Source: a virus
IMG/VR virus record: IMGVR_UViG_3300022602_000419
Location: 1-24,194 of that record
Strand: one strand, 5' to 3'
DNA length: 24,194 nucleotides
Shown: in pieces, positions 367 through 20,684 of the stretch
Layout of the letters: the number at the start of each line of letters is the position of its first letter
Position numbering within the stretch: the stretch's first letter is position 1
Translations under genes and position numbers: made by a program
The notes under the pieces: generated by a model
Databases searched by the model: none
What the model was told of the DNA's origin: nothing
What the model saw: only the letters and a program-made list of their open reading frames with translations

Positions 367-2241
367 TTATTTTGCCAATCCTGAAAGACGTAAAATATCC
401 TCAAAGATTTTATCTTCTGACATACGCATACCAGGAGGAGTTTGTCCTTTTCTTACAGCTGATGCCATTTTAGGTTCATTACGGCCGTTCAAAACACTGT
501 CACTTTCCATTTCTTTTTTACGTTCATGGCTACGACGTGCGGCACGCTCTAGTTTGGTTTCACCACCTTTGATGCCCATTAATTCCTTAACTAAATGGCT
601 ATGATGAGGTCCGAATTCTTTGTCGGCCATAAGACCTAATTCAGTAGGACCTTTCCTCCAAGGACTTTCAAATCCTTCTTCTTTATAATTGGCATTGTAG
701 TGTCCGCCTAGCCATTGTGCTAACTCACGCATACTAATGTTGTTGCCTTTTTCTTTCTTAGAATGCATTTCGTCTTCATCTTTTTGACCTTCTTGTACTG
801 GAGGTTGTTGTGGCATAGGTGCTTGTCCTTGTGGCTCTGGAACAGGAGGGGCCTGTTCTGGCTGTTGTTCTTGTCCGCTTCCTTGTTCTAATTCTGCGGC
901 AGCTTCTGGATCTATCTTTTGTAACCAAGCCATGATAGCGTGTACAGGATTACCTGCACCGTTGGTTTTATCAGCTAAATCTTGTAGTTCATTTTCTAAT
1001 TCTTCGTCATGTATGCCGATACCATTTAACGCTTCGATAGTGCTTGTAGCATCTACACCGACTGTAGGAATTTGATTAGTCTTCAACATATCTTGTAGAT
1101 CAGCGATAGTATCTGGCTCTAATCCACTGTTAGCGATACCTTCTGTCCATTTTTGGAATATGTCGAAATCATCTTCTTTTACTGTATCTTTGTCGCAAAT
1201 ACAAGGATCATGATCGCAGTCGCTACAGATATCATCGTGTCCTTCTTTTACATATTCTTCTAGATCAACAGTACCGGCTTCTTGCATGATGCTGTGTATC
1301 AATGGAAAATATTGTGCTAGGTCTTCTTTGAAACTGCTGACCGTGAACTTAGATTTATAATCTTCCATAGTAGCCTGATCCATCTCAGCCATACCGTCCA
1401 TAGTTGATATAGGATCAAATGTTTCAGCAAATTTCTCATAGCCACGTTGTCCGTGTAGTGATTTGATGTGCTGGCGTAGACTTTCTAGTTTAGAAGTTGT
1501 CTTACTGGCTATTTCATTTACTTCTTGATTTAGTTGATCGTGACGTCCCATATGTCTATGAAAAGCACTCAATTGTGCTATCTTACTGCTAGTATCAATA
1601 ATGTGACGTCCTAATTCATCATAGGGGCGTCCACCATTTGCTACGTGACGTTGCATCGCTTTCGCACCTGCGATATGTATAAATGGGTATTTGAAACGCT
1701 CGCCTTCTTCATTTTCTACAAATAATGCACTGATACCAGTGTGGCGTTGTCCATCCTGCACTGGCTTATTGTGTTTAGCAATCAACTTGGTTTTCTCTAG
1801 TACTCGATGACTGGTACGAGAAGTTCCAGTAAATTTAGCTGATTCTGTCATGTTTTCTTCCTTACTACCCTTTGTGGCCAAATATTGGAAATCATCTTTG
1901 TTAAGATTGGATTTAGTGATATCACGTGTATCAAATCTTAATAATCTACGCATAGCGAAACTACGCATTTCACGCAAAAAATCATACCAATAGTCTTTAC
2001 CAACAGGGTCTACTTCTTCTAAAATGCTTTTACCGTAGAACATCTTTAGAGTACCTAATTCGTTGATACTGATGCTAACACGTCCAAAATCGTGTCCTTC
2101 TACTGTAAAATCAAAATCGTAAAATCTTGCTTGTCTAGGGTCCATAGTGACCCCACCTTGCTCGTCGCCCATCTGTAAATTAGTGAATCGACTGCGTATT
2201 TTGTCAAATAAATCTTGGCTGATAATTTCGATAGTTTTCAT
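367..2241 (-). CDS. Conserved T4-like phage protein of unknown function, 624 aa, with Cys cluster
   Basis: I do not know the function. From recall, residues 140-215 (SHRVLEKTKLIAKHNKPV, then ENEEGERFKYPFIHIAGAKA and RHVANGG) resemble a conserved family of large unannotated proteins in marine T4-like phages. The N-terminal about 125 residues form a separate compact region. Residues 333-352 hold a cysteine cluster, CSDCDHDPCICD, which could bind a metal. Residues 450-484 are a Pro/Gln-rich linker (QEQQPEQAPPVPEPQG). The C-terminal part is charged and helical (RRSHERKKEME). It is the next gene after the large terminase, whose stop codon lies inside its promoter octamer. The position suggests a virion or head-assembly role, but that is inference. 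The start is the ATG 5 bases after AATAAATA, and there is no ribosome site. Confidence 0.85.
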   Translation of the reverse strand: MKTIEIISQDLFDKIRSRFTNLQMGDEQGGVTMDPRQARFYDFDFTVEGHDFGRVSISINELGTLKMFYGKSILEEVDPVGKDYWYDFLREMRSFAMRRLLRFDTRDITKSNLNKDDFQYLATKGSKEENMTESAKFTGTSRTSHRVLEKTKLIAKHNKPVQDGQRHTGISALFVENEEGERFKYPFIHIAGAKAMQRHVANGGRPYDELGRHIIDTSSKIAQLSAFHRHMGRHDQLNQEVNEIASKTTSKLESLRQHIKSLHGQRGYEKFAETFDPISTMDGMAEMDQATMEDYKSKFTVSSFKEDLAQYFPLIHSIMQEAGTVDLEEYVKEGHDDICSDCDHDPCICDKDTVKEDDFDIFQKWTEGIANSGLEPDTIADLQDMLKTNQIPTVGVDATSTIEALNGIGIHDEELENELQDLADKTNGAGNPVHAIMAWLQKIDPEAAAELEQGSGQEQQPEQAPPVPEPQGQAPMPQQPPVQEGQKDEDEMHSKKEKGNNISMRELAQWLGGHYNANYKEEGFESPWRKGPTELGLMADKEFGPHHSHLVKELMGIKGGETKLERAARRSHERKKEMESDSVLNGRNEPKMASAVRKGQTPPGMRMSEDKIFEDILRLSGLAK

Positions 2242-2246
2242 AGCTA

Positions 2247-2254
2247 TATTTATT
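2247..2254 (-). promoter_or_regulatory. Late-type promoter octamer AATAAATA, 5 nt from ATG
   Basis: The minus strand reads AATAAATA-TAGCT-ATG. The octamer is 7 of 8 to TATAAATA and ends 5 bases before the start codon of the 624-residue gene. It overlaps the stop codon of gp17 at 2253. No Shine-Dalgarno sequence precedes this ATG. Confidence 0.55.
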
Positions 2255-3842
2255 AATAACTGTTTATGAATATCGGCATAGGCATTTCATAGTCATCCAT
2301 TTTGGCATCTTCGACCATCTTACCATAGATAATAGGATCCCATTCTCCTAGCAATACGATCATACGTACTGCAAGTAAAAGTGCCGAAACTAGATCATCA
2401 TATTGTTGATCTTTGGCTTTAAATGTTATGCCCGCCGCTACAAAAGTTTTAAGTTCTGATATTAAACTTTTACTGTTAATCTTCATTTTCTTCTGTTCTA
2501 TCAGCTGTTTTGCCTTCGAACAGGCTGAAATCTTACTGTTGTGTGTAGTATTGAAGCCCCTACGGAACCTGCGTACATGACCTTTCTTTAAGGGTTCCGA
2601 TAGGAACATTCCTGGAATGCTCTCCTCACCCATTTCATTAATGGCGATCAATGCCGCTTCGCCTACAGTATTATTTTCTACGCTATAATAGAGATTAGCG
2701 TTCTTTCCACTCTCTAGGCATTTATTATCAATGTACTTGCAGATTTCTCTAAGTATTTTAACCTGTGCCTGTACGGGTGTAAGATTGTGTTGCCATTCTC
2801 CTACCTGTTCTAAACTAGGGAGTTCAAATATTTCTATACCTGCATAATTTCCACCAGTACCTAAACTAGGATCGTGTGCGACAACGTAAGTAGAATTAGG
2901 ATCGATTTCTTTATACCAACGCACCTGTCCCATTTTGATTATCGGTTCAATACCTTCAAGTTCTGCTAGGCAGATACTGTTAACCAATGTCTCGTCAAAT
3001 ACCAAGAATTCACAATCATGTTCACGACGGAAACGTTCTTCGCCAATACGGCTACGTTCTTCTTCGGCCCATTTATCGTCTCTATCTGGATGCTCTCTCC
3101 AATGTGCTTTGAAAGGAAAAAACCCGTTTCGTCCTACTTCTTGTGTGTTACCAAATTCATCTAAACGCTTGTTAGCTTCTTTCCAGATGCTGGCAAATTG
3201 ATCCTCATCGCTATTAGGCGTTGATGTGATAATGGCCTTACCACCAGTTGCCAGCGTAGGCGATATTGAAGTCCAAAACTCTGTAGCTACGTTGGGTGGA
3301 ACGAATGCAAACTCATCGGCATATAATAATGATAGTGACAAACCCCTTCCTGTTGTTTCAGTAGTTGTCTGTGCGATAATACGGCTTCCATTATCAAATT
3401 CAATGCTCTGCTTGTTATAACTAGTAACACCGCAACGTATATGATCAGGGCATAACTCATAGGCAAAACGTATACGACTCATGATCTCTTGAGCACCCGT
3501 ATACTTGTGTGCGGCAATTAATATAGTAGCATCTGGCACGAACATAGCGTACCATAGGAGATAGCCTGCCGCGGTGGTCGTTTTACCTGTTTGGCGAGGT
3601 AATAGATTAACATTAAATCTATGATTGTGATAACTGTCAATTAATCTACGCTGATAGTCAAATGCTTCATAGCGTAGGCGTCCTTTGGTAGGATGTTGTA
3701 TGTGGAAAAAATTATCAAGGAAGTGATGCGGCCCTGTTATAGGATCCATACAGGCACCCAAATCGAGTATATCCTGCTCGCTATATTTTTGTTTACTGTG
3801 AGCAGTTTTAACAAGGTTGCCGTCGAATCTATTTGTTGCCAT
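2253..3842 (-). CDS. gp17: Terminase large subunit, gp17-like packaging ATPase and nuclease
   Basis: This is the motor protein that pumps DNA into the prohead at the portal and cuts concatemers. The ATPase domain shows the Walker A LLPRQTGKTT (Lys87) and the Walker B LLYADE (Asp176, Glu177 as catalytic carboxylate). The coupling motif TSTP lies at about 207-210. The RNase-H-fold nuclease domain follows, with VVAHDPSLGTG (Asp324), YSVENN (Glu389) and YDDLVSA (Asp482/Asp483) giving the three metal-binding acids of the T4 gp17 family. At 529 residues it is shorter than T4 gp17 (610), mainly at the N-terminus. The gene stands as its own unit: an intrinsic terminator lies upstream at 3857-3883, then an AGTAAATA octamer 5 bases before the ATG with no ribosome site. 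No intein or frameshift is seen. Confidence 0.97.
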   Translation of the reverse strand: MATNRFDGNLVKTAHSKQKYSEQDILDLGACMDPITGPHHFLDNFFHIQHPTKGRLRYEAFDYQRRLIDSYHNHRFNVNLLPRQTGKTTTAAGYLLWYAMFVPDATILIAAHKYTGAQEIMSRIRFAYELCPDHIRCGVTSYNKQSIEFDNGSRIIAQTTTETTGRGLSLSLLYADEFAFVPPNVATEFWTSISPTLATGGKAIITSTPNSDEDQFASIWKEANKRLDEFGNTQEVGRNGFFPFKAHWREHPDRDDKWAEEERSRIGEERFRREHDCEFLVFDETLVNSICLAELEGIEPIIKMGQVRWYKEIDPNSTYVVAHDPSLGTGGNYAGIEIFELPSLEQVGEWQHNLTPVQAQVKILREICKYIDNKCLESGKNANLYYSVENNTVGEAALIAINEMGEESIPGMFLSEPLKKGHVRRFRRGFNTTHNSKISACSKAKQLIEQKKMKINSKSLISELKTFVAAGITFKAKDQQYDDLVSALLLAVRMIVLLGEWDPIIYGKMVEDAKMDDYEMPMPIFINSY

Positions 3843-3847
3843 ATTTT

Positions 3848-3855
3848 TATTTACT
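3848..3855 (-). promoter_or_regulatory. Late-type promoter octamer AGTAAATA, 5 nt from gp17 ATG
   Basis: The minus strand reads AGTAAATA-AAAAT-ATG. It is 6 of 8 to TATAAATA and keeps the TAAATA core shared by the other gene starts in this window. It sits between the terminator of the preceding unit and the terminase start, exactly where a new promoter is needed. Confidence 0.5.
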
Positions 3856-3856
3856 G

Positions 3857-3883
3857 AAAAAAATAGCCCCCTAAGGGGCTATT
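3857..3883 (-). terminator. Intrinsic terminator upstream of gp17
   Basis: On the minus strand a perfect 9-base-pair stem (AATAGCCCC / GGGGCTATT) with a 4-base loop is followed by a run of Ts that begins inside the stem (7 in all). It lies 13 bases past the stop of the 473-residue gene and ends 15 bases before the gp17 ATG. Confidence 0.85.
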
Positions 3884-3895
3884 GGGTCATACTGC

Positions 3896-5317: not shown

Positions 5318-5318
5318 A

Positions 5319-5906
5319 TCATTTCTTCCTTGGATCTTTTGCTTGTTTGAGGATACTGTGAGATGCTTGTTCTTGATTATTCATCTCGGCTTGTGTTCCA
5401 TCGGGAATCACTTCACCTCTCTCTTTTCTTTGTAACTTTAATACATCGTTTAATTCTTTTACGAAGTTAGCGTTATATTTGTCACCATAATAATCTTCAA
5501 ACTTTGCGTTTGGTGATTCTTTATAGTCTTTGTCAGTTAGCAAAGCTTCTGTTCTCTTTTCGACAGGCTGTTGATACTCTTCGCCCGGTTCTCCTGGATT
5601 TCGAACGACTAACATTTCTTTAGCAATATGTAAATTGTTTGCGATATATTCGTTTAGTTCAAAAGGAGTCGTTGGATAGTCTAATGTAACTTCATAGATA
5701 TTCACCGTTTCGTTTCTCACTTTTGGAAAATCAAGCGGGAAGCTCTGAACTGGTGTTGTTCCTGATTTTTTAAATCCAGAAACTTTGAATTTACCTAGTA
5801 GTGATTCTAATTTGGTTTCAGAATCGCTACCAAACTCCCCTGCGATTTTAATCCTGAAATCGTACTTTTTAGCACTCTCAGATAATATTTGTTTGAATGA
5901 TGTCAT
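5319..5906 (-). CDS. Conserved phage protein of unknown function, 195 aa
   Basis: The N-terminus FKQILSESAKKYDFRIKIAG and the following segments (TTPVQSFPLDFPKVRN, then YEVTLDYPTTPFEL, then VVRNPGEPGEEYQ) match my memory of a widely kept but unannotated protein in marine T4-like phages. The first 110 residues look like a small alpha/beta domain. The rest (KDYKESPNAKFEDYYGDKYN onward) is polar and probably extended, ending Lys-rich. No catalytic motif is visible. An AGGATA ribosome site lies before the ATG, with an AATAAATA octamer 17 bases upstream. The stop lies 1 base before the start of the 473-residue gene. Its place between the terminase subunits hints at packaging or head maturation, by context only. 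Confidence 0.82.
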   Translation of the reverse strand: MTSFKQILSESAKKYDFRIKIAGEFGSDSETKLESLLGKFKVSGFKKSGTTPVQSFPLDFPKVRNETVNIYEVTLDYPTTPFELNEYIANNLHIAKEMLVVRNPGEPGEEYQQPVEKRTEALLTDKDYKESPNAKFEDYYGDKYNANFVKELNDVLKLQRKERGEVIPDGTQAEMNNQEQASHSILKQAKDPRKK

Positions 5907-5923
5907 ATCAGTATCCTATGCTT

Positions 5924-5931
5924 TATTTATT
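5924..5931 (-). promoter_or_regulatory. Late-type promoter octamer AATAAATA
   Basis: The minus strand reads AATAAATA, 7 of 8 to the T4 late consensus. It overlaps the stop codon of the probable gp16 gene and ends 17 bases before the ATG of the 195-residue gene, leaving room for the AGGA ribosome site. Confidence 0.5.
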
Positions 5932-6397
5932 TCAAATCTTTAAGTTTGGCCAGTATGCTGTTGCGGTCTGTGACGATAAATCCTTCACCCTCGATCTCCT
6001 CGCCCTTGCCATTTTTCTTATCTATGGCTAGCTTTTTCAGCTGTAGATCGACCATTTTTAGCTTCTTTTCTATCTTGTTTGTTTTAGCTGTTATAGCGGC
6101 ATTTAGCATACCTGTAGCCACTTCAAACATACGTGCACTATATTTGGGCTCAACTTGCATACCGAGATCCATTATGTCATCATATGCTTCTTCGGCTTTT
6201 TTAGCCAATGTATCTAACTCTAAATCTGATACATCTCCTAGGCCGCGTACTCTAGGTAATGCAGATGCAATCTTATCGAATTCTTCTAATCGGTCTTCTA
6301 GGCTTATTACAGGAACATCGGGTATTGTTTCTGGGGGAGGAACTGATTCTTCCTTGGCCTGATTTATATCTAGTATTTCTTCTAATTTCTTTGTCAT
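5927..6397 (-). CDS. gp16: Probable terminase small subunit, gp16-like
   Basis: This is probably the DNA-recognition subunit that loads the gp17 motor. The protein is 156 residues, close to T4 gp16 (164). It has a disordered acidic N-terminus, a central helical pair (DELDTLAKKAEEAYDDI-like, then SARMFEVATGMLNAAITAKT) that fits the oligomerising coiled-coil core of the family, a charged helix (KIEKKLKMVDLQLKKLAID) and a short C-terminal peptide (NSILAKLKDLK) like the tail that ends gp16 proteins. I choose the ATG at 6397. An in-frame TTG 6 bases further up (6403) gives only two extra residues. There is no clear ribosome site. The gene follows gp4 by 13 bases. Identity rests on size, helices and position, so it is less certain than gp17. 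Confidence 0.7.
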   Translation of the reverse strand: MTKKLEEILDINQAKEESVPPPETIPDVPVISLEDRLEEFDKIASALPRVRGLGDVSDLELDTLAKKAEEAYDDIMDLGMQVEPKYSARMFEVATGMLNAAITAKTNKIEKKLKMVDLQLKKLAIDKKNGKGEEIEGEGFIVTDRNSILAKLKDLK

Positions 6398-6410
6398 AGT
6401 CAACTACTTA

Positions 6411-6851
6411 TCACATCTTTTTACCGGTATGGTATAAATCATGTTCTGTGATAATTCTAAACTTCATGCCATTTTGCTGACAGTAGGCTTTGGCAGCGGC
6501 CCATTTTACCATGTTCTTAACATATTGGGCCTGATTGTAGGGATTCTTACCTACATGCTCTTTCAATGTCTGATTGAGTGGTTTTATTTCCCACACTTCA
6601 GCACGCTTCTTCTTTTTGTTATCTGTAAACACGACTAGGAAGTCTGGAACATATATCGTAGGTTTCCCTGTCAATGGATCTTTATAAGGTATCTTGATAC
6701 TTTCACTGGCCCACTGTTGTATGGCTTCATTTTCGTCACACATCTTCATAACACTCAATTCCCAACTGCTTCGAAATCGAGGAGTTCCTAAACCTATATA
6801 TTTTTCTGGATTTTGTAATTTATAAAATCCCTGATTGAACTTCATGCTCAT
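6411..6851 (-). CDS. gp4: Head completion protein, gp4-like
   Basis: T4 gp4 (also called gp50/gp65) is needed to finish the DNA-filled head before tail joining. Family members have a restriction-endonuclease-like fold. The 146-residue protein matches the pattern I know from T4-like phages: an N-terminal NPEKYIG, then RFRSSWELSVMKMCDENE, WASESIKIPY, the VPDFLVVF segment and EVWEIKPL. The spacing D-x(n)-ExK (Asp in PDF, then Glu-Ile-Lys) is that of a PD-(D/E)XK nuclease core, so a real nuclease activity is plausible. The start overlaps the stop of the preceding small gene as ATGA (6848-6851), showing translational coupling. Confidence 0.88.
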   Translation of the reverse strand: MSMKFNQGFYKLQNPEKYIGLGTPRFRSSWELSVMKMCDENEAIQQWASESIKIPYKDPLTGKPTIYVPDFLVVFTDNKKKKRAEVWEIKPLNQTLKEHVGKNPYNQAQYVKNMVKWAAAKAYCQQNGMKFRIITEHDLYHTGKKM

Positions 6852-7222
6852 GCCAGTATATTTCTTTCTATTTCATCAGCAGGGGTTGGAGTAGCGGTTA
6901 TTCCTAGACTGCTAGTTTTAAATCTATTATAATTTAATATCTGTCCTACGATTCCACTTAACTCTACTCCGTCTAATTTTTTAAGAGTATCTAAGATCTG
7001 AAACGCATTAAGGTTAGTGGATTTAGCTTGGCTTAAAATAATCATCGCTACAGACTGTGCTGAGTCTTTATTAAAACCTTGGCTTTCAAAAAATCCAGTT
7101 ACGGCAATAAGATCAGTCCCATTTAATGAAACGGGATTTTGATAATAACTGTTAAAAAATTTCACAGTACTATTCGAACTTGATTGGACAGGTTGTTGAG
7201 GAACGTTGTTATATAATGTCAT
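6848..7222 (-). CDS. Small conserved phage protein of unknown function, 124 aa
   Basis: Function unknown. After a polar N-terminus of about 35 residues, the body is predicted helical: LIAVTGFFESQGFNKDSAQ, then VAMIILSQAKSTNLNAFQIL, then ILNYNRFKTSSLGI. I recall the ILNYNR-KTS-LG ending from small conserved proteins of marine T4-like phages. There is no signal peptide, membrane segment or metal site. Both ends overlap their neighbours by ATGA (7219-7222 with the tube-fold gene, 6848-6851 with gp4), so it is made in step with a tail protein and a head-completion protein. A small virion or assembly part is the likeliest role. Confidence 0.85.
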   Translation of the reverse strand: MTLYNNVPQQPVQSSSNSTVKFFNSYYQNPVSLNGTDLIAVTGFFESQGFNKDSAQSVAMIILSQAKSTNLNAFQILDTLKKLDGVELSGIVGQILNYNRFKTSSLGITATPTPADEIERNILA

Positions 7223-8466
7223 TTTGAATTAAATGCTTTAGCAAAATTACTGCCACTAACATTTGCGTTAGCAGTTGCAGGACTAAGTGGTCCAAAGTTT
7301 TGTAAGAAATTTTGACCCGCTGTAGGACCTGCAGGCACATTCGTAGTTCCTGCATTAACACCAGTGCCTGCACCAGATTGGACAGCTACTGCACCTGATT
7401 CAGCGACAGGATTGGGATTAAAAATCTGAACGCCATTTAGATTACCATTGCTAAACACGGTACCATTACCCTGTGCCGCACTAGTAACCTGTCCAAGCCC
7501 TACTCCTACTAATTCATTGAGAGATGCTTTTTTATTTAGACTACTGATGTTCTTAACTAGGTTAGCAGTTTGTATAGCTACCTTGGCATAATCCCAAGGA
7601 CTCTGTGCATTGGCTATGCTACCATTCTCGCCAAATATAGCGGCACCGCCTGCTACTACACCACCCGGACCAAACAGATTGCTAGCACCACCGCCTGCGA
7701 TACTTAATGGGCTAGGTGTACTATCATAATGATTTTTATTATATCCTATCGGTCCTGCGTTTCCTGAATTATAAAACACTCCTTCGTAATTTACTGTCAT
7801 CCTACTATGGAGCATCTTATTGCCTTGTGTCTGATCAAGGTCATCGTGTCTCCATTCTTTAATGATAGGATTTACTAGAGTATAACTTAAAAATTTCTGT
7901 TTGTTTAAGGTAAAGATAGTTATATCTTTGAAGAAAGGAGCATCGGCACCTTTGGCCAATCCGTAGAGATAAGATTGCTTGGCTGGAGCCTGTTTATATT
8001 TTACATCGCCGAATGCCGCTACTGCAGAAGATGTTTTTCCATTGGCATTGTTACTATAATCTCCATCAGCAAAATAGTAGCCATAATACTGTCTCCATAA
8101 CCCGGTTGTAGCATTGGCCATATCGTCATGGAACGTTATAGTAATAGGATCATAATTGAGAGTCTTTTGTATGACAGTTTTTCTATTGTATTGGTTTAAT
8201 ACTTCAGTTTCAATATTAAATTGTGGCAAGTCGGAAGATTTAGCCAGTAAACCTATTACGTTATTTTTAGCATATCTAGTATACCATGTTGGCTCGAGAT
8301 ATTTCGCTATGTCAGGATTTATGTTTAGCTGTACGTAATATAACCACCCTGCTTTAGGGGCTAGATCATAAAGATTATCGGCCCTATATAATCTGCTAGC
8401 GTGTTGTTGATCTCTTAACCATCCCTGAGAAAGGATGTTAGAAAGAAAAGAGGATAAATTACTCAT
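7219..8466 (-). CDS. Tail-tube-fold structural protein, possibly gp54-like tube initiator
   Basis: The 415-residue protein shows the strand pattern of the T4 gp19/gp54 tube fold. SSDLPQFNIETEVLNQYNRK resembles the strand that lists onto the neighbouring subunit. TLNYDPITITFHDDM resembles the gp54 'dPlvISFrmD' strand, and MTVNYEGVFYN the closing strand. The first about 60 residues (SQGWLRDQQHASRLYRADN) are helical and polar. From about residue 285 the chain is low complexity, rich in Ala, Gly, Asn and Val, as in C-terminal ends of baseplate tube proteins. It lies directly downstream of gp19 but behind a terminator and with its own CATAAATA octamer 5 bases before the ATG. It could be the baseplate tube initiator gp54 or a second tube-like subunit. 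The fold is inferred from motif similarity only. Confidence 0.6.
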   Translation of the reverse strand: MSNLSSFLSNILSQGWLRDQQHASRLYRADNLYDLAPKAGWLYYVQLNINPDIAKYLEPTWYTRYAKNNVIGLLAKSSDLPQFNIETEVLNQYNRKTVIQKTLNYDPITITFHDDMANATTGLWRQYYGYYFADGDYSNNANGKTSSAVAAFGDVKYKQAPAKQSYLYGLAKGADAPFFKDITIFTLNKQKFLSYTLVNPIIKEWRHDDLDQTQGNKMLHSRMTVNYEGVFYNSGNAGPIGYNKNHYDSTPSPLSIAGGGASNLFGPGGVVAGGAAIFGENGSIANAQSPWDYAKVAIQTANLVKNISSLNKKASLNELVGVGLGQVTSAAQGNGTVFSNGNLNGVQIFNPNPVAESGAVAVQSGAGTGVNAGTTNVPAGPTAGQNFLQNFGPLSPATANANVSGSNFAKAFNSK

Positions 8467-8471
8467 ATAGA

Positions 8472-8479
8472 TATTTATG
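8472..8479 (-). promoter_or_regulatory. Late-type promoter octamer CATAAATA, 5 nt from ATG
   Basis: The minus strand reads CATAAATA-TCTAT-ATG, 7 of 8 to TATAAATA. It lies just past the terminator of the gp19 unit and drives the tube-fold gene. There is no ribosome site before the ATG. Confidence 0.6.
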
Positions 8480-8483
8480 CCAC

Positions 8484-8506
8484 AAAAAAAGGCCCCTTAG
8501 GACCTT
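8484..8506 (-). terminator. Intrinsic terminator after gp19
   Basis: On the minus strand AAGGTCC and GGGCCTT form a 7-pair stem (one G-T pair) with a 4-base loop, followed by 5 further Ts (7 Ts in a row counting the stem end). It lies about 15 bases past the gp19 stop and 18 bases before the next ATG. Confidence 0.82.
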
Positions 8507-8521
8507 AATTTGTTTAGTCGA

Positions 8522-9151: not shown

Positions 9152-9173
9152 CTAAATGCTCCTTAATCTTTAA

Positions 9174-9181
9174 TATTTACC
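9174..9181 (-). promoter_or_regulatory. Late-type promoter octamer GGTAAATA
   Basis: The minus strand reads GGTAAATA over the end of gp18, 22 bases before the gp19 ATG. The leader holds AAGGAG. The same octamer recurs before gp13 (14514) and before the fibre gene (20677). Confidence 0.45.
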
Positions 9182-12599: not shown

Positions 12600-12631
12600 T
12601 GTCTAATCTCCTAATTTGGATCACTTTGTTT

Positions 12632-12639
12632 TATTTAGC
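12632..12639 (-). promoter_or_regulatory. Late-type promoter octamer GCTAAATA for gp18
   Basis: The minus strand reads GCTAAATA, 6 of 8 to the T4 late consensus with an intact TAAATA core. It ends 32 bases before the gp18 ATG. The leader contains TTAGGAGATTAG, a strong ribosome site fitting the high need for sheath protein. Confidence 0.45.
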
Positions 12640-12660
12640 GATACTGAGAGATTTTTTACC

Positions 12661-12668
12661 ATTAAATA
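12661..12668 (+). promoter_or_regulatory. Possible late-type octamer ATTAAATA for the HNH gene
   Basis: The plus strand reads ATTAAATA (6 of 8, TAAATA core intact), 30 bases before the ATG of the HNH gene. Similar spacing is seen for gp18 and the kinase gene. In this AT-rich gap it could be chance. Confidence 0.3.
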
Positions 12669-12698
12669 CAGGAACAAAAGGGCAGGCAAAGGGCTTAG

Positions 12699-13037
12699 AT
12701 GACTAGATTATTATGTAAAAAATGCGGAACAAGGCCGTGTGCTGTAAATTATCACAAGGAAGGTAAGACTTACTATAGGAGCCAATGTGACCATTGTTCT
12801 AGAGGTAGGCAGGAAGGAGTAGCCCGATGGGCGAAGGCTGGATATAAATTAAAACTTAAATGTGACAAGTGCGGATTTGCCAGCAAGTATGCCAAGCAGT
12901 TTAACGTCTATCACATAGATGGTAATCTCGATAATTGCCGACACACTAATCTAAAATCAGTGTGTGCAAACTGCCAACGTCTTTTACAAGATCTTGGGAT
13001 TCCTTGGCGTCAAGGCGATCTAACACCAGATTTTTAA
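12699..13037 (+). CDS. HNH-type zinc-ribbon endonuclease, 112 aa
   Basis: A small plus-strand gene among minus-strand genes. CxxC pairs lie at Cys6/Cys9, Cys30/Cys33, Cys55/Cys58 and Cys89/Cys92, enough for two zinc sites. The HNH-like core is YHIDGNLDN (His72, Asp74, Asn76) followed by TNLKSVCANCQRL (Asn84), matching the 'hIDGN..N...NL..lCaNChr' pattern of phage HNH endonucleases. The position that is usually His after the last Cys is Gln93, so cleavage activity is not certain. Such genes are selfish intergenic elements, or in some phages act in packaging. It starts at an ATG after AAAGGG and its last 92 bases run antisense through the 3' end of the dNMP kinase gene. Confidence 0.78.
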   Translation: MTRLLCKKCGTRPCAVNYHKEGKTYYRSQCDHCSRGRQEGVARWAKAGYKLKLKCDKCGFASKYAKQFNVYHIDGNLDNCRHTNLKSVCANCQRLLQDLGIPWRQGDLTPDF

Positions 13038-13650: not shown

Positions 13651-13685
13651 AGCGTCTCCTGCTAATATATAGTTTATTACAATTT

Positions 13686-13693
13686 TATTTAGA
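13686..13693 (-). promoter_or_regulatory. Late-type promoter octamer TCTAAATA for dNMP kinase
   Basis: The minus strand reads TCTAAATA, 7 of 8 to TATAAATA. It lies 2 bases beyond the gp13 stop and 35 bases before the kinase ATG. The leader carries AGGAG. Confidence 0.5.
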
Positions 13694-13695
13694 GA

Positions 13696-14508
13696 TCAAC
13701 CTCTTGTGAACCACATAGGTGTCTGATTATCTTCATTATTTTTCAAGCCCTCTTCCAGCTTTTCAATCATTTCTTTACCTTCGGCTTTTAGTGCTGTTCC
13801 GTTTAATTGGGTACCACCCTGTGGGCTAGCAATCGTTGCAAACTTTTCACGTGCTTCACCTAAGATGATTTTACATTCAGCCAGTGCATAATCTTTTAAC
13901 CAAACTCCTGCGTAAGGATCTGAGAATAGTTGGAAATCTGGACGCTGATTATACATCCAAATTAGTACACTTTCCTGTCCTCTGGGACGTTGTGTGATAC
14001 GTAGTTTTTTGGTGACTGGGTTGAAATCAAACAGAATATAACTGCCAAACAATTTGCCAACTTCTTTCTGGTAACTGGCAAACATATAATAAGTTGCGAT
14101 ACCACCCATGTTACTAGTGCTTAACAGATAAGTGTTGCTGTACGCCAAGTTGAAAGGCTCAAATAAACTTCCACCGTCGCCGCCCCCGGTCCTAGAGCCG
14201 ATGCTTCTACGGAATATTTCACGCACGCTCTGTACTTCTCTGGGCAGTATGTATTCGTTTTGATCTATTTCTAGTGTTAAAAATCCAAAACTTTCTTCAA
14301 CAGCGTTACTGCTACGTTGGCGATATTTTGCCAACGCTTTATCAATCGCCACATTATAATGCTTAGGATCTAGTTCTACATCAACCATTCCATCACCTAG
14401 AAATGTTCGTATGTATTCAACTACATCCTTCCGTGCGACTTCTAGTTCTTTTAGATAATCTTCATAATCCTTAGTTATAGGACTGTTAGGGATATTGTAT
14501 TGGCTCAT
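13696..14508 (-). CDS. gp13: Neck protein, gp13-like
   Basis: T4 gp13 closes the filled head and makes the platform for the tail. This 270-residue protein compares with 309 in T4. It shows the family pattern: YKDYLKEL-like helices, FLGDGMVDVELDPKHYNVAI, KYRQRSSNAVEESF, the strand LEIDQNEYILPREVQSVREI with FRRS after it, and then VWLKDYALAECKIILGEARE. KFATIASPQGGTQLNG and the GKEMIEKLEEGL helix near the C-terminus are strongly conserved in marine relatives. The Gly-rich loop GSRTGGGDGGS lies near residue 105. The gene is divergent from gp14, the starts being only 29 bases apart. GGTAAATA ends 5 bases before the ATG, and no well-spaced ribosome site is present. Confidence 0.9.
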   Translation of the reverse strand: MSQYNIPNSPITKDYEDYLKELEVARKDVVEYIRTFLGDGMVDVELDPKHYNVAIDKALAKYRQRSSNAVEESFGFLTLEIDQNEYILPREVQSVREIFRRSIGSRTGGGDGGSLFEPFNLAYSNTYLLSTSNMGGIATYYMFASYQKEVGKLFGSYILFDFNPVTKKLRITQRPRGQESVLIWMYNQRPDFQLFSDPYAGVWLKDYALAECKIILGEAREKFATIASPQGGTQLNGTALKAEGKEMIEKLEEGLKNNEDNQTPMWFTRG

Positions 14509-14513
14509 ACCAT

Positions 14514-14521
14514 TATTTACC
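14514..14521 (-). promoter_or_regulatory. Late-type promoter octamer GGTAAATA, 5 nt from gp13 ATG
   Basis: The minus strand reads GGTAAATA-ATGGT-ATG, with the TAAATA core. It lies 1 base from the oppositely pointing octamer of gp14. Confidence 0.5.
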
Positions 14522-14522
14522 T

Positions 14523-14530
14523 TATAAATA
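14523..14530 (+). promoter_or_regulatory. Perfect T4 late promoter TATAAATA for gp14
   Basis: The plus strand reads TATAAATA, a full match to the T4 late consensus, 7 bases before the gp14 ATG. It is the only strong element for the plus-strand unit gp14-gp15-Nudix, so most of that unit's late transcription probably starts here. Confidence 0.75.
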
Positions 14531-14537
14531 CTTGACT

Positions 14538-15755
14538 ATGCCCCGTCTCTCACTATACAAAACCGAAAAAGGTCCGGATTTTCGATTCTTGGACCGTGTA
14601 ATCAACGAACAATTCCAAGTAGGCGGAGTTGATATTTTTGTACACAAATATCTAGGACCCGTTGATCCTGCTACTGGATCTAGCAGTCCAGAAATTCCTG
14701 TAAATTCAAATCCCATACCCGAGCTAGGTATCCAGGATCTGCTGTTTATGGAAAACAGAGACAGGCATTATGATCCTGATGTTTATCATTTGCGTGGCAT
14801 TTATACCATGCAGGATATAGATTTTAATCTAAGCCAATTTGGACTGTTTTTACAAAACGATAACATAATGATCAATTTCCATCTGCGTACTACGTTTGAT
14901 GCACTTGGACGTAAATTGATGGCAGGCGATGTATTAGAATTACCTCATCTCAAAGATGAATATGCACTAGATGACAGTATGGTGGCACTAAAAAGGTTCT
15001 ATGTTATCACAGATATAACCCGTGCCAGTTCAGGATTTAGCCAGACTTGGTATCCACATCTATTAAGAGCAAAATGCCAACCTCTAGTTGACAGTCAAGA
15101 ATTCGCGGAAATATTGGATAGCCCTTCTGGAGACGGTAATAAAACACTACGTGATGTTCTTAGTACATACAATCAAAATATTGCCATTAACGAATCAATC
15201 ATACAACAGGCGGAACTTGATGTGCCCAAAAGTGGATACGATACCAGTGCTTATTATGTATTACCTTTGCAACCAAATGGATTATTAAATCCTGTTGATA
15301 CTACTAAAGAGGGTGCTGATGCTAGCACTGATTCTAATGTGCTTGATGCTAGTTTTATTTTGAGTTCAAGTCCCGAAGGATCAAATACTCAGTATGCAGG
15401 ATATCTAACAGAAAATGCTATACCTCCCAATGGAGCACCGTATACATTTGGTATAACTTATCCTAGCAATCCTGTAGTAGGGCAATTTCACCTACGCACA
15501 GATTTTTATCCTAACAGACTATTCAAATGGGATGGCAGCTATTGGATAATGACTGAGATAGCAATGCGTATGACTCTAGATAATTTCGGCGATCAAGATG
15601 TTGCTCCTGGAACACTCAACGCAGGTAAAGATACGAGACAAACACAACTAGGTACGTTTGTTAATAACAATAACACTGCTACCATTAATGGTGTAGTAGT
15701 GCAAGAACGCCAGGCATTAAGCAAAGCGTTAAGACCTAAAGCAGATACACTATAA
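14538..15755 (+). CDS. gp14: Neck protein, gp14-like (long form)
   Basis: gp14 works with gp13 at the head-tail joint. Recognised segments: RVINEQFQVGGVDIFVHKYL, IQDLLFMENRDRHYDPDVYH with LRGIYTMQDIDF after it, LSQFGLFLQNDNIMINFHLR, GRKLMAGDVLELPHLKDEYA and SGFSQTWYPHLLRAKCQPL. T4 gp14 has 256 residues. This one has 405, as in cyanophage-type phages, the extra part being C-terminal: a YPSNPVVGQFHLRTDFYPN stretch, then LFKWDGSYWIM, and the ending QALSKALRPKADTL. The ATG at 14538 is chosen over the in-frame TTG at 14532, which would lie 1 base from the promoter octamer. There is no ribosome site. gp15 follows after 9 bases. Confidence 0.93.
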   Translation: MPRLSLYKTEKGPDFRFLDRVINEQFQVGGVDIFVHKYLGPVDPATGSSSPEIPVNSNPIPELGIQDLLFMENRDRHYDPDVYHLRGIYTMQDIDFNLSQFGLFLQNDNIMINFHLRTTFDALGRKLMAGDVLELPHLKDEYALDDSMVALKRFYVITDITRASSGFSQTWYPHLLRAKCQPLVDSQEFAEILDSPSGDGNKTLRDVLSTYNQNIAINESIIQQAELDVPKSGYDTSAYYVLPLQPNGLLNPVDTTKEGADASTDSNVLDASFILSSSPEGSNTQYAGYLTENAIPPNGAPYTFGITYPSNPVVGQFHLRTDFYPNRLFKWDGSYWIMTEIAMRMTLDNFGDQDVAPGTLNAGKDTRQTQLGTFVNNNNTATINGVVVQERQALSKALRPKADTL

Positions 15756-15764
15756 AGGTTAAGC

Positions 15765-17135: not shown

Positions 17136-17557
17136 CAGAAATAGTTTGTAGCGGTGGTTTATTTTTAGCAAAAGATACTAGAAGATTCTTGTTCCTTTTA
17201 AGGACGCAGGGAAAAACTGCCGGAACCTGGGGATTAGTAGGCGGTAAAAAAGAACCAGATGATCATACACCGTACGATACACTAAAAAGAGAAATCAGTG
17301 AAGAAATAGGTAAGACACCTGTTATAAAAAAGACTGTGCCTCTAGAACTATTTGTCAGCAATGATCAACAATTCCAGTATAATACCTATATCTTGATAGT
17401 AGAAAAAGAATTCATTCCTACCCTAAATGAAGAACATTCTGGATATGCTTGGTGTGATTTTAATTGTTGGCCTAAGCCCTTACATCAGGGCGTAAAGACT
17501 AGCTTGAGTAATAAATCAATTAGAAATAAGATCGAAATCTTGCTTGAGTTGATTTAA
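17132..17557 (+). CDS. Nudix hydrolase-like protein
   Basis: Nudix enzymes hydrolyse nucleoside diphosphates linked to another group, such as nucleotide sugars or oxidised nucleotides. The 141-residue protein has the fold's opening strand (SGGLFLAKDTRRFLFLLRTQ), then TWGLVGGKKEP and LKREISEEIG (Arg53, Glu54, Glu57, Glu58), the core of the Nudix box. The box is not canonical: the stretch between GG and RE is one residue longer than usual, and the 'GE' position reads DDH. Two metal-ligand glutamates remain. The start at 17132 overlaps the gp15 stop as ATGA; a TTG at 17117 is less likely. The last 42 bases overlap the convergent APS-kinase-like gene. The substrate is unknown; nearness to sugar genes allows a nucleotide-sugar role. 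Confidence 0.8.
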   Translation: MTEIVCSGGLFLAKDTRRFLFLLRTQGKTAGTWGLVGGKKEPDDHTPYDTLKREISEEIGKTPVIKKTVPLELFVSNDQQFQYNTYILIVEKEFIPTLNEEHSGYAWCDFNCWPKPLHQGVKTSLSNKSIRNKIEILLELI

Positions 17558-17956
17558 TATCAGTCTGCTCCAAAATGCAGAATCTTGTGTAGTTACACGT
17601 AGATTGTATTTTTCCGGTGTAACAAACAGTTTAGTAGTATCGGCAAACTTGCTTTCAACGATAGTATCGACCCAAACTGTATAATCTGCTGAATAGATTT
17701 CCCGCATTTCAGGCAAAGGACAGACGAAATCAGCGATGGCATAATCACTATCTAAACGGTCTGCTAGTTCACGCATACGTTTACTTTGACGAATACGTCC
17801 TTCGTGACTGAAATCCCAATCATCGTACTCTTCTCTAACACGGTCGGCATTGAGCCAAACAGTCTTTTTATTGTTTTCGTCTAGGAGGTCACGTAGTTCT
17901 TCTGCTAACGTGGTCTTTCCGGTACCGGGTAACCCCATTATCAAGATACGTTTCAT
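17516..17956 (-). CDS. APS kinase-like P-loop kinase (CysC-like)
   Basis: A 146-residue P-loop protein with Walker A GLPGTGKTT at residues 8-16, followed by a helix LAEELRDLL. WLNADRVREEYDDWDFS (Asp38, Arg39) and RIRQSKRMRELAD match the 'GDnvR..lnkdlgFs...R.eniRR' region by which APS kinases bind adenylyl sulfate, and DFVCPLPEMREIY the following strand. CysC makes PAPS from APS. Short phage members of this family may instead phosphorylate another small molecule. The ATG overlaps the stop of the GmhB-like gene (ATGA), making this the last gene of a coupled three-gene unit. Its 3' end runs 42 bases into the convergent Nudix gene. Family is fairly sure, substrate is not. Confidence 0.8.
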   Translation of the reverse strand: MKRILIMGLPGTGKTTLAEELRDLLDENNKKTVWLNADRVREEYDDWDFSHEGRIRQSKRMRELADRLDSDYAIADFVCPLPEMREIYSADYTVWVDTIVESKFADTTKLFVTPEKYNLRVTTQDSAFWSRLILNQLKQDFDLISN

Positions 17957-18594
17957 AAACTTTCAGCAAAGGCCATTAGGTTATCGTAAATTTGTACCTT
18001 AGATTTTAGCTGTTTGTATAAGTGATTTTCTAATTTTTCCTGTGTTTTCTTTCCATTACCAGTTAATACCAGTATTGGAGTAGCACCTGCTTTATCTGCC
18101 ATTAATAGATCATCTAGACTGTCACCTACATAGGCACCGCCTTTAATATCTAATCTAGGATCAGTTTCGATAGCACGATTGAACATACCTGTATTTGGTT
18201 TACCAAATGGATCATCTTTCTTATTTGATACATTATACCAAATACCGTCAATGCTTGTGCAACCTGCTTGTCCAAATAGATTCAACATATATTGATTTAC
18301 AGCATCAACATCTGTAGTTTTTAATTTATTTTGTGATATAGCAGGTTGATCAAATATGATAGCTAGTTTATGACCTTTGCTACGTATCGTAGCAATAGCT
18401 TTCATACTATCATCGATTGGTTTGAAATCACCAGCACCACTTATAACTTCAGCATTTTCACAGAGTACTCCGTCTCTATCTACCGCGATAAAGTATTTGT
18501 CAAAAACGCTAGGCATTTTAATAGGAGGAGATTCGGCAGATGGAGCACTGGTAGTTACCTGAGGTTGGATCTTTTTTACGTCAAATCTTCCCAT
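17953..18594 (-). CDS. HAD phosphatase, GmhB-like (heptose bisphosphate phosphatase family)
   Basis: GmhB removes the 7-phosphate of D-glycero-D-manno-heptose 1,7-bisphosphate on the way to ADP-heptose for LPS. Here FIAVDRDGVLCE gives the HAD nucleophile pair (Asp39, Asp41), FGKPNTGMFNRAI gives the Lys132 segment typical of GmhB and HisB-N enzymes, and YVGDSLDDLLMADKAG gives Asp158 and Asp161-162. The spacing and the LTGNGKKT ending fit GmhB. The zinc-binding cysteine loop of classical GmhB is missing, and IFDQPAIS replaces the usual NQSGI. The first 27-30 residues are a low-complexity extension, and an internal ATG (MPSVFDKY) is a possible alternative start. It overlaps the GT9 gene by one base (TAATG) and the APS-kinase-like gene by ATGA. 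Confidence 0.8.
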   Translation of the reverse strand: MGRFDVKKIQPQVTTSAPSAESPPIKMPSVFDKYFIAVDRDGVLCENAEVISGAGDFKPIDDSMKAIATIRSKGHKLAIIFDQPAISQNKLKTTDVDAVNQYMLNLFGQAGCTSIDGIWYNVSNKKDDPFGKPNTGMFNRAIETDPRLDIKGGAYVGDSLDDLLMADKAGATPILVLTGNGKKTQEKLENHLYKQLKSKVQIYDNLMAFAESL

Positions 18595-19529
18595 TATTTC
18601 ACCTTTGATTCTATGTCTGTTACTATCTTGTTGTACATGTCATCTAGTTCTTGATCAGTAAATGATGCTAGATTTTCATTTAGTCTGTCGACTAATCCCG
18701 CATCTAATCCCATGATGCGTATAGGACTATATTTTTTCTCGCCTGCTTTTTCGATAATTTGGAACCAATCGGGATAGCTGGTATTGATCGGGAATGTACT
18801 TCCAAATATCACAGTACCAGGTTTGTTTAATGCACGAGCCATATGTTGCCCCACGCTATCAACGCCGATAAAATAATCACTATATTCGATGATAGCGGCC
18901 CAATTACGAAGATCTGTAGGACTGGTTAACTTAGCGGTATAGGTATCAGCAGGTAGATTAAACTGCTGTTCTCCAAAAAAGATCAAATTGTAGTTGTCTG
19001 CCAATCTACTGACTAGTTTTATGTAGGCATCGGGTGAAAGGCTACGACAACCATAATCTACTATTTCTGAACGATCGAGTGCGGCACCTCTACCAAAAGG
19101 TTGTATCACGATAGTTTTGTCTTTTTTCTGTTGTGCTCTAATATCTGCTACTGTATTTGCCGCCCATTTTTCCTCATATAGGCTAAACTTCATGATAGGA
19201 ACGCCCAGATCGCTATGATCAGTAGTCTGATTTATCTCTCTATCAAACCCTTCAACTAGGCTGATTTTTTGATTGAAGTAATCCGGAAGCCTGTAGGGTT
19301 CTGGAGTTATATACCTATCGGCTTTGCTAGCTATATTTTGCCAAAGTCCTTTGGTGTCTATACCGTAAGTACGGTCTTGCAGTTCCGGAATACTCCAATA
19401 AAGTGCATCCCATGCTGGAATCAATACGTTCCAATCTGCATCAGGATTTAATCTATGGTATTTGAGCAATGCTGGCATGGCAGCGATCACACGGCCTGCT
19501 CCGCCGTCTATGTAAAAAATGGTTTTCAT
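18594..19529 (-). CDS. Glycosyltransferase family 9 (heptosyltransferase-like)
   Basis: GT9 enzymes move heptose from ADP-heptose to LPS cores. The 311-residue protein starts with a short strand and a GGAGRVIAAMPALLKYHRLN helix as in GT9. QPFGRGAALDRS (about 143-154) fits the nucleotide-sugar entry loop, SLSPDAYIKLVSRLADNYNL the next helix, and IFFGEQQ the following strand. DYFIGVDSVGQHMARALNKP and the next residues GTVIFGSTFP (218-246) are the hallmark 'D..iG.DSg..HlAaal..P...lFG.t.P' of GT9. The neighbour being GmhB-like makes a heptose substrate reasonable. A weak ribosome site (AAGAA) and a TATAAATT octamer 20 bases upstream precede the ATG. It may rebuild host LPS or decorate virion glycans. 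The donor sugar is unproven. Confidence 0.85.
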   Translation of the reverse strand: MKTIFYIDGGAGRVIAAMPALLKYHRLNPDADWNVLIPAWDALYWSIPELQDRTYGIDTKGLWQNIASKADRYITPEPYRLPDYFNQKISLVEGFDREINQTTDHSDLGVPIMKFSLYEEKWAANTVADIRAQQKKDKTIVIQPFGRGAALDRSEIVDYGCRSLSPDAYIKLVSRLADNYNLIFFGEQQFNLPADTYTAKLTSPTDLRNWAAIIEYSDYFIGVDSVGQHMARALNKPGTVIFGSTFPINTSYPDWFQIIEKAGEKKYSPIRIMGLDAGLVDRLNENLASFTDQELDDMYNKIVTDIESKVK

Positions 19530-19531
19530 AT

Positions 19532-19562
19532 GTTCTTATTATATAAAATAATTTATAAGAAC
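19532..19562 (-). repeat. Inverted repeat in the GT9 leader
   Basis: An 8-base perfect inverted repeat (GTTCTTAT / ATAAGAAC) with a 15-base AT-only spacer lies just before the GT9 start. It could form a hairpin in the transcript or be an operator, and it encloses the TATAAATT element. Confidence 0.5.
19550..19557 (-). promoter_or_regulatory. Possible late-type octamer TATAAATT for the sugar cassette
   Basis: The minus strand reads TATAAATT, 7 of 8 to TATAAATA, 20 bases before the GT9 ATG. It stands in an AT-only stretch within the inverted repeat, so chance is possible. Confidence 0.4.
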
Positions 19563-19583
19563 ACAACCCCTTATGGAGGTATT

Positions 19584-20669
19584 TTAGAATGAACTATACT
19601 GTGCGTAGATGTTAAATGTGCCGCCGATATTGACGATACCATAGGCTACTATGTCCGTATGGCTAGCATTACCGGGCCATACTACGCCGCCTGACCATTT
19701 TGGAGTTACCGCGGTTCCATTGATAGTGATTTGGGTAGCTGTATAAGGTGTAGTTCCTTGATTAACTAGGAAGGTCACGATAGTTGAATAGTTAATTGGA
19801 TCAGTAGGAACACCATATAATGCTATACTCCATGTAGCACTAGGCGATACATAATAGGTTTGTCCAGCATTAAACAAGAAACTGGTAACACCACTGACTG
19901 AACCAACGTTGTTCATGATTTCTAGAGTGTTGGTAAATGTGCTAAGGCCAGTTACACGGGTTGAAGTAGATACGATGAATCCGCCTGCGTTGATATTACC
20001 TGCTACACCTAGACCTCCATAGACTACCAATGCACCTGTAGCTGTACCGGCACTGACTGTACCACTACTAAAGGTAGCTACGATATTACTGGCTAATGTT
20101 CCACCTACGTGTATGTAGACATTTTTACCAGGTGCGTCAGTTCCTAATGTAAGGTTACCTCCGTCTACATACAGATATCCATCTTTGGCACCGCTGATAG
20201 TCCAAGAACTGGTAGAATATCCGCTGTTGTTGATACCCATATCGATATAGTTAGCACTGTCACTGCCTACATCAGCTGTAGCTACGAAATCGCTACTGGC
20301 TATCGCACCTGTATTGGTGTTTTGTATCTGTATCTGTGTATAACTGTTAACGTTATTAGTTAATACCATCAATGGACTAGATAGTCCTATCAAGCTCTGC
20401 TGAGGTCCACCATAAACTATACCACCCACATATAAATTACCGCCGATGCCTGCACCACCTGCTACAGTTAAAGCACCTGTAGCTGTTGAACTAGACGGTA
20501 GATAACTGGTTATCGATAGATTACTAAACGATCCTGTAGTAATCGATAATATTCCTGTTATCGTACTGTAGGAAAGTGTACCACCTACGTTTAGATTTCC
20601 GCCAACAGTTAGCCCGCTGAGTACAGTGCCTGTACCATAAATTACCGTTCCGCCTTGTAGTTTTGCCAT
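19584..20669 (-). CDS. Repeat-built tail-fibre-like protein, 361 aa
   Basis: Low-complexity fibre protein rich in Gly, Ser, Thr, Val and Asn. It has two clear copies of a module also found in neighbouring genes: STATGALTVAGGAGIGGNLY (about 61-80, then VGG) and GTATGALVVYGGLGVAGNIN (about 210-229, then AGG). A degenerate opening reads GLTVGGNLNVGGTLSYST. Such G-N-x-x-V-G-G turns every few residues suit a beta-helix or triple-beta-spiral shaft. The C-terminal 110 residues (FLFNAGQTYYVSPSATWSIA, then TQITINGTAVTPKWSGGVVW) look like a separate globular tip. Probably virion-exposed and involved in host contact, by composition and place. GGTAAATA ends 7 bases before the ATG; there is no spaced ribosome site. 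Confidence 0.75.
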   Translation of the reverse strand: MAKLQGGTVIYGTGTVLSGLTVGGNLNVGGTLSYSTITGILSITTGSFSNLSITSYLPSSSTATGALTVAGGAGIGGNLYVGGIVYGGPQQSLIGLSSPLMVLTNNVNSYTQIQIQNTNTGAIASSDFVATADVGSDSANYIDMGINNSGYSTSSWTISGAKDGYLYVDGGNLTLGTDAPGKNVYIHVGGTLASNIVATFSSGTVSAGTATGALVVYGGLGVAGNINAGGFIVSTSTRVTGLSTFTNTLEIMNNVGSVSGVTSFLFNAGQTYYVSPSATWSIALYGVPTDPINYSTIVTFLVNQGTTPYTATQITINGTAVTPKWSGGVVWPGNASHTDIVAYGIVNIGGTFNIYAQYSSF

Positions 20670-20676
20670 AGTATAT

Positions 20677-20684
20677 TATTTACC
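20677..20684 (-). promoter_or_regulatory. Late-type promoter octamer GGTAAATA, 7 nt from ATG
   Basis: The minus strand reads GGTAAATA-ATATACT-ATG ahead of the fibre gene, in the 18-base gap after the LamG-like gene. The spacing is the same as for gp14. Confidence 0.45.

Follow-up and report, generated by a model that had tools for sequence, protein, structure and literature searches.

Probable late promoters set at the start codon and predicted leaderless mRNAs for one class of late genes in a lineage of T4-like jumbo phages

The window studied here is a 24,194-base IMG/VR virus record (IMGVR_UViG_3300022602_000419) that carries tail, neck, packaging and structural genes as identified by PHROG match. 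Its source is a T4-like jumbo myovirus. The nearest isolates by large terminase (gp17) are Pseudomonas phage PA5oct (56%), Sinorhizobium phage Phosso (49%) and Agrobacterium phage Atu_ph07 (52% over 80% of the length). Late genes of this virus and its relatives are preceded by an octamer with the core TAAATA. These octamers are very probably gp55-type late promoters, which in one class of late genes are fused to the coding sequence, with transcription predicted from the sequence to start at the A of the start codon itself or no more than about three bases away.

An earlier note on this DNA had placed such octamers directly before six genes. All six positions are borne out: the octamer ends 5 bases before the ATGs at 2241, 3842, 8466 and 14508, and 7 bases before those at 14538 and 20669. 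A seventh short-spaced gene, absent from that note, lies at 5927-6397 and carries the variant core TAAGTA at a distance of 7 bases. The genes to which the note had assigned longer leaders are also as described, with octamer-to-ATG distances of 17 bases at 5906, 22 at the tube gene (9151), 30 at the endonuclease gene (12699), 32 at the sheath gene (12599) and 35 at the deoxynucleoside monophosphate (dNMP) kinase gene (13650). Each of them has a purine-rich site of the Shine-Dalgarno (SD) type. The statement that none of the six has an SD holds overall but is slightly too strict at gp13 (14508), because a weak AAGG lies 11 bases upstream and overlaps the octamer. This AAGG would be usable only on a transcript begun further upstream.

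Spacing between the octamer and the start codon

Relatives of the window are 80 related viral contigs (loci) retrieved via gp17. One of them, G001 (locus L023; 354,680 bases), is close to the window, with a gp17 91% identical to that of the window. It was analysed whole, as were four more large contigs (G002, G003, G004 and G006). Open reading frames (ORFs) and their starts are mechanical first-ATG calls, 370 in G001. Shuffles preserve dinucleotides, and 200 were made for G001.

TAAATA occurs 15 times in the window against an average of 35.6 in shuffles, and is thus depleted overall, yet it is placed before genes. In G001, it stands 5 bases before the ATG in 20 of 370 genes, with 1.0 expected (P 1.6e-19; P values here treat genes as independent). 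No other hexamer, including the SD hexamers, shows as strong a positional preference. In shuffled G001 sequence, the count at this spacing averages 0.51 and never rises above 4, and no shuffle has more than 5 at any position. The earlier note had made its proposal depend on TAAATA being commoner at this spacing than in shuffled sequence, which is the case in G001. The shuffles and the overall depletion of TAAATA reject chance occurrence in AT-rich DNA as the cause. One repeated gene family is likewise rejected, since unrelated G001 genes share the spacing.

The distances fall into two groups. In G001, the octamer ends 4-9 bases before the ATG in 31 genes, 10-16 bases in 2, and 17-60 bases in 47. 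The window and the 80 loci together (996 ORFs; counts not independent, because the loci are related) give 126 genes at 5, 38 at 4, 33 at 7 and a total of 8 at 9-15, with a second hump from 17. The peak at 5 is also present in G002, G003, G004 and G006. The avoided leaders are those of about 4-10 bases, which are too short for an SD and too long for a leaderless mRNA. The first two letters of the octamer are variable. Among 18 one-letter variants of TAAATA, only TAAGTA has a clear peak of its own (20 at 5 and 6 at 7, over a background of 0.4 per position).

Predicted transcription start

The T4 late octamer spans positions -13 to -6 relative to the start site (PMC1524935). An octamer that ends 5 bases before the ATG would therefore put +1 on the A of the AUG. 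Two tests that are independent of T4 bear on this placement. The first concerns the letter before the ATG. In the 5-base class, it is C or T in 97% of 109 genes from the loci and in 100% of 20 genes from G001, compared with 53% and 49% of motif-free genes (Fisher 1.8e-22 and 1.3e-6, respectively). T is dominant, and G is never seen. This pyrimidine looks like the first half of the pyrimidine-purine step of a start site. The second test uses the longer-leader promoters, where the pyrimidine-A step peaks at bases 5-6 after TAAATA, at 0.38 compared with 0.11-0.30 at other steps. We infer the exact transcription start from these signatures and from the T4 geometry.

Where the octamer stands 7 bases away, the spacer (ATATACT or GTTTACT, for example) points to an A three bases ahead of the AUG as the start, which would give a 3-base leader. 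The claim that all six mRNAs begin at or within 2 bases of the AUG is supported by several sequence signatures, with the reservation that the two 7-base genes more likely have a leader of 2-3 bases than none.

Terminators, divergent starts and the late sigma factor

The TAAATA before the ATG could instead be a translation signal, an A/U-rich and SD-independent ribosome site as in SD-poor bacteria, with transcription starting further upstream. The octamer does occupy the location of an SD, and in several cases it overlaps the preceding gene's stop codon, as a coupled translation signal might. Four further lines of evidence on the promoters are set out below.

The first is the placement of terminators. 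The gp17 gene (2253..3842, minus strand; PHROG 36964, E 4.1e-115) is predicted to be leaderless. Upstream of it stand, in order, a terminator hairpin, a T tract, the octamer, five bases and the ATG. The octamer AGTAAATA lies at 3848..3855 (minus), 5 bases before the ATG at 3842. The rho-independent terminator, AATAGCCCC-ttag-GGGGCTATT followed by the T tract, lies directly upstream at 3857..3883 (minus). Its hairpin has a 9-pair stem and ends 19 bases from the ATG in the window, and 17-21 bases before the ATG in 26 gp17 sequences. The stem letters covary in relatives (for example, GCCCC/GGGGC, GGCTC/GAGCC, GCCAC/GTGGC and GCGCC/GGCGC). Gene 7219 (7219..8466, minus), a predicted leaderless gene of the tail-tube family (PHROG 13438, E 9.6e-11), has the octamer CATAAATA at 8472..8479 (minus), 5 bases before the ATG at 8466. 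Upstream of this promoter stands a different hairpin, followed by a T tract (8489..8506, minus), with a 7-pair stem that ends 22 bases from the ATG in the window and mostly 20-22 bases in relatives. In four loci (L047, L048, L058 and L070), the terminator-promoter unit of gene 7219 stands 18-19 bases from the ATG, an apparent switch of mode. Across the loci, terminator-like hairpins are found within 75 bases upstream of 54 of 185 short-class genes, 5 of 143 long-class genes and 6 of 597 motif-free genes, in a simple search whose counts are dominated by the gp17 and gene 7219 families.

The second is the divergent gp13/gp14 pair. The gp13 neck protein gene (head-tail adaptor Ad2; 13696..14508, minus; PHROG 211, E 3.6e-33) is predicted to be leaderless. 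Its octamer GGTAAATA at 14514..14521 (minus), 5 bases before the ATG at 14508, is conserved in G001 and G003. Back to back with it lies the octamer TATAAATA at 14523..14530 (plus), 7 bases before the ATG at 14538 of a virion structural protein gene in the gp14 position (14538..15755, plus; PHROG 11591, E 1.2e-77), which is predicted to be leaderless or to have a 2-3 base leader. Between the two starts lie 29 bases in the window, 28 in G001 and 29 in G003, and in all three the octamers stand at 5 and 7 bases. Another divergent pair of G001, at 245631/245660, is 28 bases apart and has octamers at 4 and 7 bases.

The third is the promoter architecture. Upstream of the octamer in G001, information is at most 0.28 bit everywhere in both classes, with no -35 peak. 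T4 late promoters likewise have no -35 conservation (PMC2988020). The fourth is the late sigma factor, for which six related contigs were searched; the window does not span that region. In five of the six, one ORF is a homologue of the gp55-family sigma and matches both PHROG 12791 (E at most 5e-80) and PHROG 234 (E at most 1e-23). In G001, this ORF lies at 128250-129119.

A translation signal fits these observations poorly. The identical motif stands 17-60 bases upstream of SD-led genes in the same phages, and terminators finish immediately ahead of the octamer. Where divergent starts are only 28-29 bases apart, a further promoter would not fit between the genes. The pyrimidine-A step seen at the AUG is characteristic of transcription initiation, and a gp55 homologue is present. 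We consider this explanation improbable. An mRNA start near the AUG is supported by the distance peak, the pyrimidine-A step, the abutting covarying terminators, the divergent starts and the gp55-type sigma taken together.

Two classes of late gene

As the earlier note had proposed, the late genes fall into two classes, and class membership is conserved within gene families across 81 related sequences. With short spacing taken as TAAATA or TAAGTA 4-8 bases from the ATG, short-spaced members make up 60 of 79 for gp17, 61 of 71 for gene 367, 32 of 42 for gene 7219, 28 of 50 for gene 5927 and 16 of 50 for gene 5319. In relatives, none of 28 sheath genes and none of 40 tube genes is short-spaced. 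On a gp17 tree with 83 rows, including two isolates, the minimum number of state changes is 9 for gp17, 7 for gene 367, 5 each for genes 7219 and 5927, and 8 for gene 5319. The last family has 16 short and 30 long orthologues. Most of its orthologues have either an octamer 5 or 7 bases away and no SD, or an octamer at least 17 bases away together with AGGA or GGAG.

The short class of G001 includes gp17, gp13, gp14, a baseplate wedge protein, peptide deformylase, an HNH endonuclease, two further likely virion proteins and many unknowns. Its long class includes the sheath, tube, a baseplate hub protein, fibre-like proteins and endolysin. Ahead of the major capsid gene there is an SD, with no octamer in the nearest 60 bases. 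The proposed division into leaderless packaging and neck genes and SD-led abundant proteins stands for the terminase, neck, sheath, tube and major capsid. It fails in that the leaderless class also takes in peptide deformylase, the HNH endonuclease, the baseplate wedge and many unknowns, and the SD-led class takes in the low-copy baseplate hub protein and endolysin. The functional split is a fair trend, not a rule. The peptide deformylase gene of G001 (63745-64251; L084:3745-4251) itself belongs to the predicted leaderless class, with CGTAAATA-TTTTT-ATG at its start.

A further possibility is that the octamers are real late promoters, while the productive mRNAs are read-through transcripts from upstream and the leaderless transcripts are a little-translated by-product. 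Some short-class genes do closely follow another gene, such as the one that starts at 2241, 11 bases after the gp17 stop, and leaderless initiation is generally inefficient in Escherichia coli. However, a strong predicted terminator stands upstream of both gp17 and gene 7219, and no SD is retained for a read-through mRNA. The exact spacing is also kept in many lineages, with repeated switching between two modes only, and a by-product would need neither. This explanation, too, has little probability. Translation of short-class genes would depend mainly on mRNA from their own late promoter, because a read-through mRNA lacks an SD and at gp17 and gene 7219 should be terminated. That the start codons are mis-called, with true starts downstream behind an SD, is hardly credible: the starts are indeed mechanical first-ATG calls, but in most relatives the protein alignments of gp17, 5319 and 5927 start on the called Met or only a few residues from it, and mis-calling would not give TAAATA at a fixed 5 bases together with a pyrimidine before the ATG.

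Proposed mechanism

In the mechanism that we propose, a gp55-type sigma would load RNA polymerase at the octamer, and the first template base would be the A of the ATG. The short-class mRNAs would then have no leader and no SD, and direct recognition of the 5'-terminal AUG would be needed for this reason. We infer that ribosomes, probably 70S with initiator tRNA, bind this AUG directly. In the second late class, which includes the sheath and tube, the same promoter would act from at least 17 bases upstream through an ordinary SD leader.

Several points weigh against the assignment of start-codon promoters and leaderless mRNAs. The absence of an SD in the short class of G001 (0 of 31 genes, compared with 30 of 47 with octamers at 17-60 bases) is in part imposed by geometry, as the octamer takes up the place where an SD would be. 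For octamers at 4 bases, a pyrimidine precedes the ATG in 91% of genes from the loci but in only 1 of 8 in G001, where the base is mostly a purine; the start may be shifted by a base there. Gene 367-2241, which begins just behind gp17, and others without a terminator could be translated by read-through. Finally, a scan of a bacterial and archaeal genome collection found no relative.

A more ambitious reading joins these elements. In an uncultured T4-like jumbo clade with a second late class, the late sigma would both make the mRNA and, by setting +1 on the AUG, fix the mode of translation. Genes such as those of the terminase and neck proteins would yield protein solely through their own late promoter, with no contribution from read-through mRNA, and possibly by way of 70S ribosomes at a late stage of infection when initiation factors or free 30S subunits run short. 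We regard this combination as possible but doubtful.

A phage initiator tRNA as a helper of leaderless translation is unsupported. G001 carries fourteen tRNA genes (L081:307-9703, L093:16750-16826), three of them with a CAU anticodon, and these three have no initiator hallmarks by eye. G001 also encodes a transfer-messenger RNA (tmRNA) of the permuted two-piece type at about 328205-328662 (L097:8205-8662, plus), found with Rfam RF04321 (106.9 bits) and ARAGORN. We take the permuted tmRNA as a possible hint of an alphaproteobacterial, betaproteobacterial or cyanobacterial host.

Other features of the window

The remaining octamers of the window lie in both classes. Gene 367..2241 (minus), a predicted leaderless virion structural protein gene (PHROG 13484, E 2.4e-12), has the octamer AATAAATA at 2247..2254 (minus), 5 bases before the ATG at 2241 and overlapping the gp17 stop codon. 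The variant octamer of gene 5927-6397 is GATAAGTA at 6405..6412 (minus), 7 bases before the ATG at 6397. A gene without a PHROG match (19584..20669, minus), predicted to be leaderless or to have a 2-3 base leader, follows GGTAAATA at 20677..20684 (minus), 7 bases before the ATG at 20669. The SD-led contrast class is represented by AATAAATA at 5924..5931 (minus), where AGGA lies 7 bases from the ATG at 5906, by GGTAAATA at 9174..9181 (minus) before the tube gene, and by GCTAAATA at 12632..12639 (minus) before the sheath gene.

The endonuclease gene, which is HNH endonuclease-like (12699-13037, plus), lies between the opposite-strand sheath and dNMP kinase genes and has its own octamer. In the head-closure cluster, genes 6848-7222 and 6411-6851 overlap by four bases and have no octamers, as operon-internal genes should.

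Significance

Phage leaderless mRNAs are usually isolated oddities, lambda cI being one. The T4-like lineage described here appears to rely on them for a conserved group of late genes, with SD leaders kept for the sheath, tube and capsid. Promoter position would be tied directly to the mode of translation, and orthologue pairs that switch modes offer natural comparisons. The arrangement also makes a concrete prediction about ribosomes in late infection. Gene callers that expect an SD may misplace starts in such genomes, where an octamer ending 5 bases before an ATG can serve as a start-codon marker.

Comparison with known systems

The late promoters of T4, which are gp55/gp33/gp45-dependent TATAAATA elements, share with the octamers described here the core TAAATA, the lack of a -35 element, a gp55-family sigma and a position before late virion genes; here, the core precedes terminase, neck, sheath, tube and structural genes. 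The start predicted here, at the sixth base after the octamer, would also be the same. In the T4 stretch, however, octamers end 9-46 bases before the ATG, most often 24-28 and usually with an SD, whereas here a whole class stands at 4-8. In addition, the first two letters are relaxed here, and TAAGTA is tolerated.

The cultured T4-like jumbo phages PA5oct, Phosso, Atu_ph07, CBB and Munch have a related gp17 and similar late-gene content. Like the phages described here, they carry late-type TAAATA octamers 17-60 bases upstream of SD-led genes. Unlike here, short-spaced octamers are limited to one PA5oct gene and are absent from the Phosso, Atu_ph07, CBB and Munch stretches. Stretches from 11 isolates (these five, T4, Syn9, P-SSM4, Vibrio 2.275, Rhizobium RHph_I1_9 and Desulfovibrio 7757) hold 2 short-spaced octamers in 538 genes and 106 octamers at 17-60 bases, compared with 71 short-spaced octamers in 1012 genes of five related contigs (Fisher 4e-13, each set against octamers at 17-60). 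Short spacing as a trait of all T4-like phages is thus rejected. With 2 short-spaced octamers against 106 at 17-60 bases in the isolates, short spacing emerges as a trait of this lineage that is seen elsewhere only in rare cases. The PA5oct case is a structural protein gene (L099:44986) with the sole octamer 5 bases from an ATG in that stretch, reading TATAAATA-CGTGT-ATG, in a phage that is cultured. In the cyanophage P-SSM4 stretch (L151), a single octamer stands 5 bases from the ATG of a 166-amino-acid ORF (TATAAATA-CCTAT-ATG), which, judged by its length, may be the plastoquinol terminal oxidase at L151:18274-18774. In the openly accessible literature searched, we found no report of systematic leaderless late mRNAs in T4-like phages.

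Bacteria are known to have leaderless ('TA-led') genes whose -10 box lies about 12 bases ahead of the start codon (PMC3160421), and 171 leaderless starts are described in Sinorhizobium meliloti (PMC3616915). The genes described here resemble them in having a -10 element about 10-12 bases before the AUG and no usable SD, the latter partly forced by geometry. In both, orthologues can switch class. The bacterial -10 element is read by a host sigma factor of the sigma-70 type, whereas the element described here belongs to the phage late-sigma type and stands before late virion genes. Transcription of lambda cI from PRM gives the classic leaderless phage mRNA, which begins at the AUG as predicted here. 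It concerns one regulatory gene of a temperate phage, whereas the class described here is predicted to comprise some thirty genes of a jumbo phage, many of them late.

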